From: Candidatus Gottesmanbacteria bacterium
GTDB taxonomy: Bacteria; Patescibacteriota; Microgenomatia; UBA10105
Direction of reading: 5' to 3'
Assembly (NCBI GenBank): GCA_023245415.1
Contig: JAHFKJ010000006.1
Location: forward strand, 1-59,375
Length of the DNA: 59,375 bases
The position numbers and the translations under genes are program-made. Shown piece after piece: positions 18,057 to 45,235 of the stretch (its first letter is position 1; each line of letters starts with the position of its first letter). Below the pieces are notes generated by a model, which worked only from the letters and a program-made list of their open reading frames with translations, made no database searches and was not told the origin of the DNA.

Positions 18057-18458
18057 ATGATTATGGATCAACAAGACGCTCGTGTAATAAATAAACCTAA
18101 AATTTTATTAGTCGAAGATAATGAGACTTTTCGCAAAGTAGTTAAGAGAACAATGGAGTTGTCAGGATTTGATATTTTTGAAGCTGAAAATGGGCTCAGA
18201 GGTTTAGAAATCGCCCGGGTAAATAAACCAGACCTGATTCTGGTTGATATATATATGCCGGTGATGGACGGGATGTCGATGCTTTCCGAACTTAAAAAAG
18301 ATGAAATCCTCATGAAGATTCCAGTCGTTATGGTGACCAACGTTCAGGAGGAACTTGACAATGCAGTCAAGGCTGGTGCTGAAGAAGCAATTCTTAAATC
18401 TTCACTTACCCCTTCACAAATGGTGGACGTGTGTAAGAAGTATTTGGATTTAAATTAG
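18057..18458 (+). CDS. Stand-alone response regulator receiver domain (CheY-like)
   Basis: 133 residues forming a single REC domain: acidic pocket in LLVEDNE (~18-24), phospho-acceptor aspartate in LILVDIYMPVMDG (~62-74), the conserved Thr/Ser region VVMVTN (~92-97) and the lysine in EEAILKSS (~110-117). No output domain or histidine kinase is nearby. It may act by protein contact. Either the ATG at 18057 or the one at 18063 could be used; an AGGGA lies 9 bases upstream of the first. Its end overlaps the end of valS by 4 bases. Confidence 0.9.
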   Translation: MIMDQQDARVINKPKILLVEDNETFRKVVKRTMELSGFDIFEAENGLRGLEIARVNKPDLILVDIYMPVMDGMSMLSELKKDEILMKIPVVMVTNVQEELDNAVKAGAEEAILKSSLTPSQMVDVCKKYLDLN

Positions 18459-20842
18459 TCTTCACTTCTTGTTGGCCAGGAAGCGGTGATTAATAAATTT
18501 TTCGATTCAATCGGCATTAAGTGCCAAATTTCTTCAGTCACAAACGGCATGAAAGGATGGAGGAGTTTCAGAATCGTGAAATAAATATAGCGCATGACGC
18601 TTAATGTTTTTGCTGTTTCTTCATGTTTTTTCTCCAATTCGTAAGTTCTAATTCGCAATTTTAAATTCTCAAGATACCAATCGGCATATGTATGCCAGGT
18701 GAATTCATACAGCGAACTTGTAGCTTCACCAAAGTTGTAATTATCCAGGGCTTTCGTTACCCGATTGATCTGCATAGTTAGTTGTGAAAGTATGCGTCTG
18801 TCTTGAGGGTGTAAAGTTTTTCGCGCTGCTACTAAATCTTCGTAAAAAGGAATATCCACTGGACTGCCATCTGTGAACTGCATACTTACAAATCTGCCAA
18901 TGTTCCAGAGTTTATTGGAGAAATTGCGATAACCCCGGATGCGTTCTTCCATTTGCTGTTTGGAAATCAACAAATCATTTCCGCTGTCGCGTCCGGCAAG
19001 CAGGGCCATACGCACAGCATCGGCGCCATATTTGGCAATAGCTTCGTTGGGATTAATACCGTTACTTTTGGATTTGCTCATTTTTTGGCCTTTTTCGTCC
19101 CGGAGTACGCCATTTATCAAGGCAACCTGAAAAGGAACCTCATCAGTCAGATACAAGCCGAACATGATCATCCGCGCTACCCATAAAAATAAAATTTCAT
19201 ACGCCGTATTCATAACTGTAGTAGGGTAAAAGTGTTTAAAGTCATTGGTATCTGAGTTTTTTAGCGTATTTACCGGCCATTGTCCTGACGAAAACCAGGT
19301 GTCAAAAGTATCCGGATCCTGAATATATTCATCATCTCCAGCTGGCATATCCTGTGAAACTATTGGAGATTCCAGTACGTCGGTGCGCGACCGCGTGTCG
19401 CCTTTTTTCAATAATTCAAATTCGTGAATCTGTTCAGTCGTCTTTTGTGATGAACGTCCGTACCATACAGGGAGTTGCTGTCCCCACCAGATTTGTCGGG
19501 AAATTGGCCAATCCCGGATATTTTTCATCCAGTTAAAATACATTGCTTCGTATTTCTTAGGAATTATTTTAACCTTGCCGGTTTCAACTGCGGTGGTAGC
19601 ACGTTTTGCTAAAGGCTTAATACTCACGAACCATTGACGCGACACCAGAGGTTCAATTGTAGTGGCACAGCGTTCACAGACAGCCACTTCGTGTTTGAAG
19701 GGGACAATTTTTTCCAGCAAATTATTTTTGGATAAGTATTCGGAAATTAACTGCCGGGCAACTTTAGTTTTTAGTCCTGCCCACTGTCCTGCGTCGCTGG
19801 TAAGCTTTCCATCAAAGTCAATTCCGTTTTTAATCGGGATATTATGTTTTATGGCTACCTGATAGTCCTTGCTGTCATGGGCCGGTGTCAGTTTTACAAC
19901 ACCTGTGCCAAATTTGGGATCTACAAATTCGTCGCCGATGATTTTCATGTCTTTTCCGGTTAAAGGGTTTTTGACATTTTTTCCGATTAAGTGAAGGTTT
20001 TTTTTGTCCGTCGGGTTTACTGCCAGATGTGTATCCAGCCAGATCGGTTCCACCCGAGTCGTGGCAACAATTACATATCCTTCTTCCCATGTTTTGGGGT
20101 ATCTTACAAAATAAAGTTGGTCTTCCTGTTCTTTCCATTCCAGTTCCAGATCAGCTAAAGTGCTCCTACAACGGGGACACCAGTTAACGATGCGAAATCC
20201 GCGATAGACTAATCCTTCACGGTGCATTTTGATAAATGTTTCCAATACCAACTGGGAAATTTGCGGATCCATGGTAAACTTTTCGCGCTGCCAGTCACAG
20301 CTGGCACCCAAAGCTCGGAGTTGATTTTCCATGAGCATTTTGTTATCCATGCAAAACTTATAGCATTGCTTAACAAATTCTTCACGGCCCAGGTCGTAGC
20401 GCGATTTATCCTGTTCCTTCCTGAGTTTTTTTTCAAAAGTAACTTGGGTGAGAATTCCGGCGTGATCTACGCCTGGCAGCCATAAGGTGGGTTCGCCTCG
20501 CATTCGGTGATAGCGGATCAAGGCGTCGGAAACGGCGACAAATATCGCGTGCCCCAGGTGGAGTTCGCCATTGGCATTGGGCGGGGGCATAATAATAGAG
20601 AAAGGTTTACCTTGTTTATCCGCCTCTGGTGGAAGCGAGCCGAAGGGTTTACCGTGAGCGGAGCCGAAGGGTTTACCGTGAGCGGAGCCGAAGGGTTTAC
20701 CGTGAGCGGAGCCGAAGGGTTTACCGTGAGCGGAGCCGAAGGGTTTACCGTGAGCGGAGCCGAAGGGTTTAAATGCTCCTGCCTCTTCCCACATTTTATA
20801 TATGCGGTCTTCAGTAGTTTTGTGGTCGTATGTTTTATCCAT
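18455..20842 (-). CDS. valS: Valyl-tRNA synthetase with an in-frame tandem-repeat insertion
   Basis: 795 residues, class I. The HIGH-type motif is GELHLGHAIF behind PPPNANG (~93-107). KMSKS is exact (EKGQKMSKSKSNG, ~590). The editing-domain block TTRVEPIWLDTHLAVNP and the C-terminal LLHPFMPFVTEEIW are conserved. The enzyme charges tRNA-Val. Residues ~28-71 are an array of GKPFGSAH units encoded by 24-bp DNA repeats just ahead of the HIGH motif. The gene is preceded by a T-box, so it responds to uncharged tRNA-Val. The usual C-terminal coiled-coil is missing, consistent with the short length. Confidence 0.95.
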   Translation of the reverse strand: MDKTYDHKTTEDRIYKMWEEAGAFKPFGSAHGKPFGSAHGKPFGSAHGKPFGSAHGKPFGSAHGKPFGSLPPEADKQGKPFSIIMPPPNANGELHLGHAIFVAVSDALIRYHRMRGEPTLWLPGVDHAGILTQVTFEKKLRKEQDKSRYDLGREEFVKQCYKFCMDNKMLMENQLRALGASCDWQREKFTMDPQISQLVLETFIKMHREGLVYRGFRIVNWCPRCRSTLADLELEWKEQEDQLYFVRYPKTWEEGYVIVATTRVEPIWLDTHLAVNPTDKKNLHLIGKNVKNPLTGKDMKIIGDEFVDPKFGTGVVKLTPAHDSKDYQVAIKHNIPIKNGIDFDGKLTSDAGQWAGLKTKVARQLISEYLSKNNLLEKIVPFKHEVAVCERCATTIEPLVSRQWFVSIKPLAKRATTAVETGKVKIIPKKYEAMYFNWMKNIRDWPISRQIWWGQQLPVWYGRSSQKTTEQIHEFELLKKGDTRSRTDVLESPIVSQDMPAGDDEYIQDPDTFDTWFSSGQWPVNTLKNSDTNDFKHFYPTTVMNTAYEILFLWVARMIMFGLYLTDEVPFQVALINGVLRDEKGQKMSKSKSNGINPNEAIAKYGADAVRMALLAGRDSGNDLLISKQQMEERIRGYRNFSNKLWNIGRFVSMQFTDGSPVDIPFYEDLVAARKTLHPQDRRILSQLTMQINRVTKALDNYNFGEATSSLYEFTWHTYADWYLENLKLRIRTYELEKKHEETAKTLSVMRYIYFTILKLLHPFMPFVTEEIWHLMPIESKNLLITASWPTRSED
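20639..20770. repeat. 24-bp tandem repeat inside valS (5.5 units)
   Basis: Five full 24-bp units start at 20639, 20663, 20687, 20711 and 20735, and a 12-base partial unit ends at 20770. The units are identical as far as I can read. On the coding strand each encodes the eight residues G-K-P-F-G-S-A-H. The unit length is a multiple of three, so copy-number changes keep the frame. The identity of the units points to recent expansion. Words related to GKPF border it on both sides (FKPFG before, QGKPFSI after), which may have seeded it. Confidence 0.95.
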
Positions 20843-38614: not shown

Positions 38615-40344
<1,730 letters not shown>

Positions 40345-40400
40345 GGTCGCAACCGAAATCCTGAGCTTGTCGAAGGATAAAGTTTACAGTAAAAAAAGAA
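40345..40400 (+). repeat. Post-groEL repeat unit, copy 1
   Basis: After the groEL stop comes GGTCGCAACC and then GAAATCCTGAGCTTGTCGAAGGATAAAG, containing the word CCTGAGCTTGTCGAAGGA that is a common repeat in CPR and other genomes. The same segment recurs at 44024 after the groEL-tail copy. There the ten bases after the stop are replaced by the palindrome TCCGCCAGCCGGCGGA. Confidence 0.8.
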
Positions 40401-40402
40401 TT

Positions 40403-40432
40403 AAAAACCCCTGCGTGCGCGCAGGGGTTTTT
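40403..40432 (+). terminator. groESL intrinsic terminator
   Basis: AAAAACCCCTGC / GCAGGGGTTTTT with a GTGCGC loop: a strong 12-bp bidirectional hairpin ending in T5. A near copy lies at 44074-44103. Confidence 0.92.
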
Positions 40433-40461
40433 GTTGTTATAATCTATCTAAACTCATTTAC

Positions 40462-41397
40462 ATGGGCAGCAAACAACTCACAATACTCGACGTTTCCACA
40501 TTGTTACCTGGACCGTTTACCAGTTTTTTATTGAATAAACACCTCAATGTTCATGTTGAGAAAATTGAAGATATCAATCATAGTGATCCGCTTGCCCATA
40601 TGCGTCCCACCAAAGATGGAATTGGGCTCGGGTACATGGCAATTAATAAAAATAAACACATCACAAAACTTGATTTTAGAAAAGACGGTATAGAAATCAT
40701 TAAACGAAAAGCTCAATCCTCAGATATTTTTATTGAAAATTACAAACCGGGAAAAGCTTTTAGATTGGGGTTGGGATTTGAGGATTTGCAACAGGTAAAT
40801 CCACATATAATCTACTGTTCATTGACTGGATTCGGACCGTCTCATCCACTCGCCAAAAAATCAGCTCATGATCTCAATATTTTAGCGCTCAGTGGATTTT
40901 TGGATCAGCAACAAAAAATGAGAAGCGCATCCTTCTTGCCGCCTCTGCTTTTGGCTGATTTGTTTACTGCGTATCAGAGCGCCATCAAGATTTTGTCATG
41001 TCTAATCAGTAACTCTCGGGGAATTCATCTAGAAATTTCTATGTATGAAGCTTTTCAAGAAGCGATGATCTTAAATAATTACCCGCAACTTACAACTCAG
41101 GCGGACTTTAATGCAATTGATTATATTATGTCGGGAATGTATCCCTGTTACGGACTATATCAAGCTCGTGACGGATGGGTGGCGGTTGCTGCAATTGAAA
41201 AACCCCTTTGGATTGATTTTTGCCACCACTTGGACCGTCAGCCGTGGATAGACCAGCAATTTGATATGACGCTCACCAAAGATATCGCACTTGTTATGAG
41301 GCAATTTGATCGTGGACATTGGGAACAAGAAAATTTGGATTTTTGTGTGAGTCCGGTGCTTTCTGTGACAGAAGCACAACAGCGGCAGTATGTATAA
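40462..41397 (+). CDS. CoA-transferase family III protein (CaiB/BaiF type)
   Basis: 311 residues, shorter than the usual ~380-400. It has the family order: ILDVSTLLPGPFTSFLL (~8-24), RPTKDGIGLGYMAINKNKHITKLDF (~49-73), FIENYKPGKAFRLGLGFEDL (~91-110), IIYCSLTGFGP (~117-127) and the substrate block KSAHDLNILALSGFL (~133-147), with LLLADLFTAYQS (~160-171). The family moves CoA between acids or racemises acyl-CoAs. TATAAT (40438-40443), just past the groEL terminator, is its probable promoter. It overlaps the AMP-ligase gene by 8 bases, so they form one operon. Confidence 0.85.
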   Translation: MGSKQLTILDVSTLLPGPFTSFLLNKHLNVHVEKIEDINHSDPLAHMRPTKDGIGLGYMAINKNKHITKLDFRKDGIEIIKRKAQSSDIFIENYKPGKAFRLGLGFEDLQQVNPHIIYCSLTGFGPSHPLAKKSAHDLNILALSGFLDQQQKMRSASFLPPLLLADLFTAYQSAIKILSCLISNSRGIHLEISMYEAFQEAMILNNYPQLTTQADFNAIDYIMSGMYPCYGLYQARDGWVAVAAIEKPLWIDFCHHLDRQPWIDQQFDMTLTKDIALVMRQFDRGHWEQENLDFCVSPVLSVTEAQQRQYV

Positions 41398-42724
41398 ACC
41401 TAATTACTCCTCACTTCTGGCGTATCTTGAAGCAAGTGCCAAGAACTGGCCTGAACGTGAAGCGCTGATTATCCGCAGAAGAATCCGCCGCGAAATCATA
41501 AAATACAGCGAGCTATTGCATGCAATTGCGCAAACTGAGTTTTGGTTTCAGAAAGAAAAAATTCTCCCCAGATCCAAAATTTTATTTTGGTGCCAAAATT
41601 GCCCAGAATATACAGCCGCATTACTCACAAGTCTTTTGACCAATAGAGTCGCCGTGCCTATAGATTGGCGTACCGGGCATGAGACGATTGTAAGGATAAT
41701 TGACAAAACACAGCCGAAATTCTGCTTCATATCAAAATATTTCAAACACGATTTTTTGTTGAATCGTCAAATCAGAGTATTTTATATTGAAGATTTGTTC
41801 ACGCTATTTAAAGCGACTAAAACCCAAGATTTCAAGAGTCTTCTTACTCACAAAAACTACACTGACCCCGAAAATATAGTGGAAATTGTTTTCACCTCCG
41901 GCACTACCGGTAAACCAAAGGGAGTAGTTATGAAGCAGAAGAATATACTAGCCAACTTGCGGGCGGTTGAACTGGCCCTGCCTGATTTAAACAATTCAAG
42001 AACCATCTCTATTTTACCTCTGTCTCACATGCTTGAACAAATCGCCGGTTTACTATTGCCGCTTGGTCATGGAACGTCTATTTATTATTTACCCAGAATA
42101 AATAGTTTCCGACTATTGCAGACATTTTCAGAATATAAACCTACGCACTTAGTTTTTGTGCCGCAAATGTTGAAAATCTTTTGGAACAAAATTGAATCAC
42201 ACGCAAGTACTACAAAACAGTTGGACAAACTTAAAAGACTTATGAATATGACTCAAGTCGCGCCGCGTGGGGTGAAGCGGCTGATTTTTAGGCAAATTCA
42301 TGCACTCTTTGGCGGTCAGTTGCGCTATGTCGCTTGTGGAGGCGCGCCACTGGACGTAAAAATTGCTAAACACTGGGTAGATATCGGCATACCCATAATT
42401 GAAGGGTATGGAGCGACCGAGGTAACCGCGATAGCCACAATTAATACGCTCGAAAAATTGAAAATTGGGAGTGTCGGTAAGCCGCTTCGTGGCGTGAAGA
42501 TTCATCTGAAAAAAGGGGAAATTTATATTCAAAGCGAGAGTGTTTCTTCTGGTTATTTTGCAGATGCAAAAAGAAACAAAGCTTCATTTACACAACTGGG
42601 TTATAAAACGGGAGATATTGGAGAGCTTGACGGTCAGGGATATTTACGGATAGTAGGGCGAGATGTTTTTAAAATAGTTTTGCCCAGAAAAAGTATTTGT
42701 GGAAGATTTGGAATCCAAAATTAG
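41390..42724 (+). CDS. AMP-dependent acyl ligase (N-terminal part of a frameshifted ligase-ACP-acyltransferase)
   Basis: 444 residues as read, but the last ~13 are out of frame. The ANL-superfamily core is complete: P-loop VFTSGTTGKPKGVVMK (~169-184), ISILPLSHMLEQIAG (~206-220), GYGATEVTA (~341-349; usually YGxTE), and YKTGDIGELDGQGYLRIVGR (~404-423). The hinge then continues as DVFKIVLP, after which frame 2 gives EKVFVEDLESKI, exactly as family members do (the hinge lysine region). The +1 shift falls at CCC (42683-42685). It should adenylate a carboxylic acid, probably a fatty acid, for transfer to ACP or CoA. Confidence 0.85.
   Translation: MYKPNYSSLLAYLEASAKNWPEREALIIRRRIRREIIKYSELLHAIAQTEFWFQKEKILPRSKILFWCQNCPEYTAALLTSLLTNRVAVPIDWRTGHETIVRIIDKTQPKFCFISKYFKHDFLLNRQIRVFYIEDLFTLFKATKTQDFKSLLTHKNYTDPENIVEIVFTSGTTGKPKGVVMKQKNILANLRAVELALPDLNNSRTISILPLSHMLEQIAGLLLPLGHGTSIYYLPRINSFRLLQTFSEYKPTHLVFVPQMLKIFWNKIESHASTTKQLDKLKRLMNMTQVAPRGVKRLIFRQIHALFGGQLRYVACGGAPLDVKIAKHWVDIGIPIIEGYGATEVTAIATINTLEKLKIGSVGKPLRGVKIHLKKGEIYIQSESVSSGYFADAKRNKASFTQLGYKTGDIGELDGQGYLRIVGRDVFKIVLPRKSICGRFGIQN
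42683..42686 (+). other. +1 frameshift site (CCC-A) joining ligase and ACP-acyltransferase
   Basis: Frame 1 reads TTG CCC AGA AAA; frame 2 reads CCA GAA AAA GTA. Slipping of a Pro-tRNA from CCC to CCA at 42683-42686 would fuse the two open frames and restore the natural protein sequence (LP-EKVFVEDLE). CCC-N is a known +1-slippage codon. It may also be an ordinary one-base insertion or a sequencing error. Confidence 0.6.
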
Positions 42725-43931
42725 CAACCAAGATAGTGTAAAAGAGACATGTGTGGTGGCAAGGCGTTTGTCCGACGGCGATCAAATTCACGCCTTTTTT
42801 ATTTTGAAGCATAAAGATGCGGATTTAAAAAAAATTGTTGCCCAACTAAACTCGCGCCTTGAATCTAAGCAGCAAATTACCAGTTTCGAGTTGTGGCCTC
42901 AGGCAGATTTCCCCCGCACCCCAACCCTTAAAATAGATCGTAAACTAATGTCTGAACTGGCTAATAATCACATCTCCCGAAAAGCTGTGGTAGCGTCCCA
43001 ACTAAATACCGGGCAACTGTTTGACATTCTGGATGTGGTAAGCAAAGTAAGTAGCTTTCCCAAAGAGCGGATTGTCGACACAGATATTTTGGCAACTGAT
43101 TTAGAATTGGATTCTCTGACGCGGACTGAGTTGGTTTCATTGGCTGAAGAATATTTGGGAATTGTGATTGATGAAGCAAGTATTACCTCTAAAACAACGA
43201 TAGGGGATTTGAAAGATTTATGTAAGCATTCAGAAAATATTGCAGATCTTAAATTACCGGTATGGCAATTTAGCAAATGGGGACAATTTTTTAACCGATT
43301 GGTTATAAGTATGGTGTTGATCCCTTTGCATAATTTTGTAATAAAAATTAACTATCCGCAAATTCACCTTCCCCGCATCAAACCAGGCAGTTTAGTACTT
43401 ATCAATCACCCGGGAATTTTGGACGATATTTGTACTATTCGTCTGCTGTGGAAACAAGGACTCAAGAAGATCACTTCTGCAGCAGTATTTACGAATTGGG
43501 AACCGCGAGACATATTGACCTTTGCGATCGAGTTGTTCGTGGGCGGATTACCGCTATATAAGTCTGGACAAAAATTTACCAAAGTTATGTCGAAATTTTC
43601 TGATCTTTTGGATCAGGGCTACGCATTCATTTTTGCACCCCAAGGCAGAGTTGAAGCTTTCACTGCCATGCATGAAGATCCATTTCTACCCGGAGTAGGT
43701 TATATAGCTAAAGAGTTAAGAAAGCCTATATTTATAGTAAAAGTTAAAGGTTACAAAAAGATTTGGCCCAATACGCCCCAGGGTTGGAGCAAGTCACCAT
43801 TCAGGGAACTGTTGCCAAAACGGCGTGGGACCGTTGAAGTGATTGTTTCAGAAGAAATCAAAGTTGATTATGAAAACTTGAGTCCTATCCAAATTACCAA
43901 TTTACTTGAAGAAAAATACAAAGCAATTTAG
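42699..43931 (+). CDS. Acyl carrier domain plus PlsC-type acyltransferase (C-terminal part of the ligase fusion)
   Basis: 410 residues from a GTG. The first ~100 residues finish the AMP-ligase C-terminal domain (VEDLESKI, PTLKIDRK). Residues ~105-185 form an acyl-carrier domain with the phosphopantetheine serine in DLELDSLTRTEL. Residues ~205-405 form a PlsC/LPLAT domain with H-x4-D in LINHPGILDDI and FAPQGRVEAF as the later block. The order ligase-ACP-acyltransferase resembles the Aas/acyl-ACP synthetase arrangement used to reacylate lysophospholipids. It is likely made as one protein with the upstream frame. Confidence 0.82.
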   Translation: MEDLESKISNQDSVKETCVVARRLSDGDQIHAFFILKHKDADLKKIVAQLNSRLESKQQITSFELWPQADFPRTPTLKIDRKLMSELANNHISRKAVVASQLNTGQLFDILDVVSKVSSFPKERIVDTDILATDLELDSLTRTELVSLAEEYLGIVIDEASITSKTTIGDLKDLCKHSENIADLKLPVWQFSKWGQFFNRLVISMVLIPLHNFVIKINYPQIHLPRIKPGSLVLINHPGILDDICTIRLLWKQGLKKITSAAVFTNWEPRDILTFAIELFVGGLPLYKSGQKFTKVMSKFSDLLDQGYAFIFAPQGRVEAFTAMHEDPFLPGVGYIAKELRKPIFIVKVKGYKKIWPNTPQGWSKSPFRELLPKRRGTVEVIVSEEIKVDYENLSPIQITNLLEEKYKAI

Positions 43932-43965
43932 TCTTTTGAAATTTGGGCAAAATTTTCAATAAGGT

Positions 43966-44103
43966 GTGTCAGGCGGAATAGGTGGCATGGGCGGAATGGA
44001 CTATTGATCCGCCAGCCGGCGGAGAAATCCTGAGCTTGTCGAAGGATAAAGTTTTCAGTAGAAAAAAAGAATTAATAACCCCTGCGAGCGCGCAGGGGTT
44101 ATT
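43966..44103 (+). repeat. Duplicated groEL 3' end with terminator, copy 2
   Basis: Bases 43968-44007 encode, in a frame without its own start, [13 protein letters not shown] and a stop, the groEL C-terminus. From GGTGGCATGG (43981) to the stop the match to groEL is exact over 27 bases. After the stop lies the palindrome TCCGCCAGCCGGCGGA (44008-44023), then the GAAATCCTGAGCTTGTCGAAGG segment and a near copy of the groEL terminator. Together with copy 1 it forms ~100-base direct repeats flanking the three-frame acyl module. Confidence 0.92.
44074..44103. terminator. Terminator of the acyl module (groEL-terminator copy)
   Basis: AATAACCCCTGC / GCAGGGGTTATT with a GAGCGC loop. It differs from the groEL terminator by paired changes in the stem base (AAAAA/TTTTT against AATAA/TTATT), so both arms changed together and pairing was kept. 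Confidence 0.9.
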
Positions 44104-44119
44104 GGTTGCATTGACAGTA

Positions 44120-44801: not shown

Positions 44802-44905
44802 ATTGACAGCTTCTTATTTTATTCAAATTTGTGTTAAAAATAGTTATGAATCCAAATAATAAGTTAAAATTCCCCAAATGTTCCGGTTTTTGGTACTATT
44901 AAATG

Positions 44906-45235
44906 ATGAAACTTATTACGTTAAATATGTGGGGAGGTAAACTTTAAAAATCGCTTCTTACTTTTATTAAAAAACATCACAAGGAGGTAGACATTTTTTG
45001 TTTTCAGGAGGTCTATCATCAGGGTAACTCACACTATCCAGAATTTACGAATGCAGATATGGACATTTTTAATCATATACAGGAAACGTTGTCAGATCAC
45101 ATAGGATATTTTACAACGCCCCAAGACAACGAATTCGGCTTAGCGATATTTATAAGAAAAACATCTCGAGTTAAAAAAGTAGGCGAAACGTTTGTCTTTA
45201 GATGGAAGAATGCTCGCGTTGAAAGTGGTGGTTGA
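44906..45235 (+). pseudogene. Endonuclease/exonuclease/phosphatase-family remnant
   Basis: Starting at ATG 44906: MKLITLNMWGGKL, then a TAA (44945) where the family has an aromatic residue, then in the same frame KSLLTFIKKHHKEVDIFCFQEV (the catalytic Q-E-V of EEP enzymes). It continues to FGLAIFIRKTSRVKKV and a TGA at 45235. Only the first ~110 codons of a ~230-residue domain remain. One nonsense codon and loss of the C-terminal half make it inactive. It runs into a PIN fragment. Confidence 0.7.

Follow-up and report, generated by a model that had tools for sequence, protein, structure and literature searches.

Gene Content of the Locus

The window, which is the whole stretch of 59,375 nucleotides analyzed here, carries a 3.5-kb cassette consisting of a CoA-transferase gene and a broken fused gene, and the cassette is bracketed by two copies of the groEL 3' end. 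The features of the locus are as follows:

40299..40436, + strand: native groEL 3' end with its terminator, repeated directly at 43965-44108 (136 aligned positions, 93% identical)
40462..41397, + strand: class III CoA-transferase of the CaiB/BaiF type (PF02515, E = 3e-46), overlapping the ATG of ORF1 by 8 nt
41390..42724, + strand: ORF1, acyl ligase of the ANL superfamily, N-terminal part with the adenylation core (444 aa; PF00501 positions 1-384 of 384, E = 1.1e-58)
42678..42698, + strand: two-frame overlap 5' of the first start codon of ORF2; the lesion lies between CCC 42683-42685 and GAA 42687-42689, as placed by the alignment of relatives and the join scan
42699..43931, + strand: ORF2, rest of the ligase lid, ACP domain, and PlsC-type acyltransferase (410 aa from GTG; open from 42678)
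43965..44108, + strand: second copy of the groEL 3' end and terminator (direct repeat of about 140 nt)

The two ORFs at 41390-43931 are confirmed to belong to one protein, of which they encode consecutive parts in different frames. The initial annotation had described one ligase-ACP-acyltransferase polypeptide here, and both its coordinates and its domain reading hold, given the Pfam domains, the relatives, and the length of the stop-free frame, since 417 open codons would arise by chance with a probability of about 2e-13 under the local base composition. Taken together, the ORFs form a gene of about 846 codons with a single frame lesion and unchanged GC3.

The ligase motifs A3, A5, and A7 are intact in ORF1, and the lid in ORF2 carries the catalytic lysine of A10 (FPRTPTLKIDR). 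ORF2 continues with the ACP domain at 43026-43220 (DLELDSL; PF00550, E = 6e-7) and the PlsC-type acyltransferase at 43374-43733 (NHPGILD), where the EG of motif III is changed to QG. The PF01553 model scores E = 4e-4 on ORF2, slightly under the family cut-off, and 2e-17 in one relative. The motif table for the window copy lists A3, A5, A7, the A10 lysine, the serine of the ACP DSL motif, and HX4D as kept, the glycine of the A8 hairpin as deleted, and the glutamate of PlsC motif III as changed.

The CoA-transferase is C-terminally short compared to the Pfam model (319 of 366 positions), and no homologue of it was found in the 28 genomes of relatives that were searched. It lies near no other ligase-ACP-acyltransferase gene, and it was rejected as a conserved partner of the fused gene, which is itself absent from the same-family genomes G001 and G002. 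The groEL repeat and the lack of both cassette genes in the closest relatives suggest lateral entry of the cassette at the end of groEL, which would not be very recent in view of the 7% divergence between the repeat copies. In the four relatives examined, the region downstream of groEL is not syntenic, and a clean empty site was not found.

Two further observations concern the surroundings of the cassette. At 44903-45232, a 110-residue fragment is 64% identical to the start of a 247-codon ORF near groEL in G001 (L118 4800-5540), which probably encodes an endonuclease/exonuclease-type protein; the rest of this ORF is missing in the window, which suggests that a further gene remnant adjoins the cassette. 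Elsewhere in the window, KPFGSAHG is repeated in tandem about six times in the N-terminus encoded by the ValRS gene (18455-20842), which is a housekeeping gene.

Relatives of the Fused Gene and Size of the Lesion

Relatives were collected in two ways. An alignment-based search of genome contigs gave 80 loci, and searching 374 genomes from the class and 380 from the phylum gave nine further carriers, one of them on a contig that the first search had also returned, as well as one gene for the ligase alone. A search of the genome contigs with ORF2 alone gave no match. The complete relatives (75 full-length sequences, from 11 distinct Patescibacteria among others) have all three domains on a single ORF that runs without interruption for about 820-950 codons; two have longer N-terminal extensions, and several matches in Chloroflexota are the ligase alone.

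These fused proteins, found in Acidobacteria, Chloroflexota, Spirochaetota, Patescibacteria, and others, share about 25-35% identity with the joined window protein over most of its length and have the same order of AMP-binding, PP-binding, and acyltransferase domains. They are single ORFs, unlike the window copy, which is a broken homologue of this ligase-ACP-PlsC family. We know of no characterized member of the family. Among the NCBIfam models, NF005291 and NF006386 (acyl-[ACP]--phospholipid O-acyltransferases of 1140-1147 positions) match the ligase part with 114 and 103 bits, far under their cut-offs of 1349 and 1221 bits; both models place the ligase at the C-terminal end, and ORF2 is unmatched.

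The ligase frame departs from the family at CCC 42683-42685, and the second frame, which is in the +1 register relative to ORF1, takes up the lid again at GAA 42687. From 42686 on, the final 12 codons of ORF1 up to its stop are out of the frame of the family. An example of the family sequence at the join is IVLP-DG-KNVYPEDIE, and Patescibacterial relatives have IVLPDG or IVLPNG, whereas the window reads IVLP-EKVFVEDLE. The xG dipeptide of the A8 hairpin is present in 88 of 88 relatives (82 aligned and six further Patescibacteria), and both of its residues are missing in the window. A single base (A 42686) thus stands where relatives hold six, so the net loss relative to the family is 5 nt, with two codons gone and one base left over, which is congruent with the +1 register.

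When all joins were scored with a profile of 75 relatives, those restoring five bases were the best at 641.9 bits, compared to 636.5 bits for the +1 join. This preference is modest in bits, and the residue pattern is unanimous. The gene had been annotated as split by one base; the change of frame is real in the alignment, whereas its size is five bases rather than one. A comparison of CC with CCC in the reads had also been proposed. That test was mis-posed, since with one C fewer the frames would be back in register but the residues would still be missing.

Origin of the Broken Frame

The initial annotation attributed the join to slippage of a proline tRNA from CCC to CCA, and programmed or productive +1 frameshifting at CCC-A would indeed yield a full-length enzyme. 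The frames overlap, the joined product aligns with relatives over its entire length, and AcpS is retained in the genome, all of which are in keeping with such recoding. However, the product of a CCC-to-CCA slip would be without the invariant glycine and one further residue of the xG dipeptide. Conservation of the CCC-A join in homologues, a check that had been suggested, was not found either: no complete homologue is shifted, all of them being in one frame. CCC-N had been called a recognized +1-prone codon, but the frameshift-prone proline contexts reported in Escherichia coli are CC[C/U]-[C/U] (PMC8643618), which CCC-A does not fit, and in-frame CCC-A occurs 33 times across the 21 counted genes of the contig. 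A stimulator in the downstream RNA was considered and rejected, as the 80 nt downstream fold like shuffled sequences (z = 0.31). Frameshifting of this kind is highly improbable as the source of the full-length enzyme.

The same can be said, at much the same strength, of two translationally coupled chains acting as a complex, with ORF1 supplying a ligase core that lacks the lid and ORF2, from GTG 42699, supplying the lid, ACP, and acyltransferase. The GTG lies 23 nt 5' of the ORF1 stop, an overlap typical of coupling, and the break is close to the core/lid boundary of ANL enzymes. On the other hand, ORF2 would lose the first strand of the lid and the hairpin, ORF1 would gain a dozen foreign codons, and no clear Shine-Dalgarno sequence precedes the GTG. 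Homologues occurring as two separate genes, the case that had been named as contrary to a single protein, were found in none of the related genomes, which carry an uninterrupted ORF. It is very unlikely that this lineage tolerates an A8 hairpin shorter by two residues and obtains the full enzyme through recoding or, in the alternative, two chains. If it did, expression of the only ACP of the genome would depend on a change of frame, which could act as a throttle on lipid remodeling.

The reading that we hold with considerable confidence is that of a single three-domain gene, acquired in the cassette beside groEL, whose frame was broken by a net loss of 5 nt in the A8 hairpin. ORF1 ends about a dozen codons past the lesion without the A10 lysine, the ACP, and the transferase, which suggests that the full enzyme is not made. 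The joined window protein deviates at 27 of 117 conserved positions; other Patescibacteria deviate at 6-23, and the overall median is 5. The conserved residues lost include G382S and the deleted glycine (both 100% conserved), P437V (97%), and E751Q of PlsC motif III (96%). Among the 76 sequences, the terminal branch of the window copy is the longest (1.56, the next being 1.13). The excess of conserved-site loss is only about z = 2 after correction for divergence, in a comparison whose spread is widened by two ligase-only proteins.

The lesion may instead be confined to the assembly or to a minority strain, with the gene of the population being an intact single ORF. This has an appreciable, though smaller, chance of being correct: the lesion is a lone one in a long, otherwise open gene, AcpS is kept while no other ACP is found in the genome, and the genome is a draft of 60 contigs. 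A net loss of 5 nt is, however, not a homopolymer miscount, the about 20 other genes of the contig are uninterrupted, and the loss of conserved residues is raised independently of the lesion. On balance, we favor a real mutation of fairly recent date, in a gene already under weak constraint, over a fault of the assembly or consensus or a minority allele. The single lesion, the largely intact catalytic motifs, and the retained AcpS indicate that the gene was functional until recently or is intact in the population. The window copy is thus most likely a recently disrupted, decaying gene, or else a consensus error.

AcpS and the Proposed Lipid-Salvage Module

A phosphopantetheinyl transferase able to prime an ACP is present in the genome of the window. 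It is the one AcpS over the cut-off, looks intact, and lies on another contig (C1:26031-26261). The only ACP domain over the threshold in the whole genome is that of the fused gene; no separate ACP and no ketoacyl synthase were found over the cut-off in this genome. Lipid synthesis had been described as generally incomplete in the lineage, and this holds for the genome of the window, which has no recognizable FAS condensing enzyme or free ACP. Ten of the 374 genomes sampled from the class have AcpS and six have the fused gene, and all six of the latter are among the ten (hypergeometric probability 6e-11, or 2e-9 without the window's own genome, the genomes not being independent of each other). 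The ligase-only carrier, G283, has no AcpS.

In six Patescibacterial loci (L093, L094, L095, L101, L102, and L104), the fused gene is immediately preceded by a gene of the AcpS family. In two others, AcpS is at a distance of two to three genes upstream: L091 4375-8523 is an operon of AcpS, an MFS_2 transporter, and the ligase-ACP-acyltransferase, and in the operon at L092 4974-10035 an MFS_2 transporter and an alpha/beta hydrolase lie between AcpS and the fused gene. The fused gene and AcpS, usually in one operon and twice with an MFS transporter, form a candidate lipid-salvage module resembling Aas/LplT.

Three other loci in the genome of the window were noted. Downstream of the AcpS gene on contig C1, and in the same orientation, lie genes for a glycerophosphodiester phosphodiesterase and a lipase-like hydrolase (L109 4216-6277); the group is possibly a lipid-scavenging operon that includes the only PPTase of the genome. 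A second acyltransferase candidate on contig C30 is sub-threshold (12 bits), and a second AMP-binding gene on contig C23 encodes, by its sequence, a 584-aa ligase resembling acetyl-CoA synthetase.

Aas of E. coli is one polypeptide, with the transferase at 1-203 and the ligase at 204-719, and it is associated with the transporter LplT (PMC11416262). As in the window family, a single chain joins an acyl-activating ligase to a PlsC-type transferase (PMC11416262). However, the order in Aas is transferase then ligase, whereas that in the window family is ligase, ACP, and transferase, and Aas uses free holo-ACP where the window family has a built-in domain. The resemblance to lplT-aas extends to the MFS transporter in the operon of L091 and L092, which belongs to PF13347 (MFS_2) and is only a candidate LplT; the window copy itself is broken and has no transporter neighbor.

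The intact enzyme would most parsimoniously be a lipid-salvage enzyme like Aas with its own ACP, a proposal based on the domain composition. The ligase domain would adenylate a free fatty acid, which would then be loaded on the ACP arm of the enzyme after priming by the AcpS encoded elsewhere in the genome. The acceptor of the acyl group would be a lysolipid or glycerol phosphate, and the reaction would resemble that of Aas, which works with a separate ACP. The Aas-type lysophospholipid reacylation suggested in the initial annotation thus remains the best functional guess from the domains, whereas its likeness to Aas does not extend to the domain order and the use of free holo-ACP.

The frameshift itself is of little weight, being that of a broken copy or an assembly fault, and the gene family is of greater interest. 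No enzymes producing or requiring ACP were reported in a survey of 675 CPR genomes, which also described unusually many lysolipids in the cells (PMC7242380), and for Patescibacteria a lysophospholipase and a transferred acpP have been reported (PMC12455944). In the literature searched, no description of a ligase-ACP-acyltransferase and AcpS module in Patescibacteria was found. Such a self-contained module occurs in a small minority of Patescibacteria (6 of the 374 sampled genomes of the class), where the fused gene and AcpS are a concrete candidate for re-acylating scavenged lysolipids. The intact version and its helper enzyme would be a rare lipid-salvage kit in bacteria that had been believed to use no acyl carrier protein.
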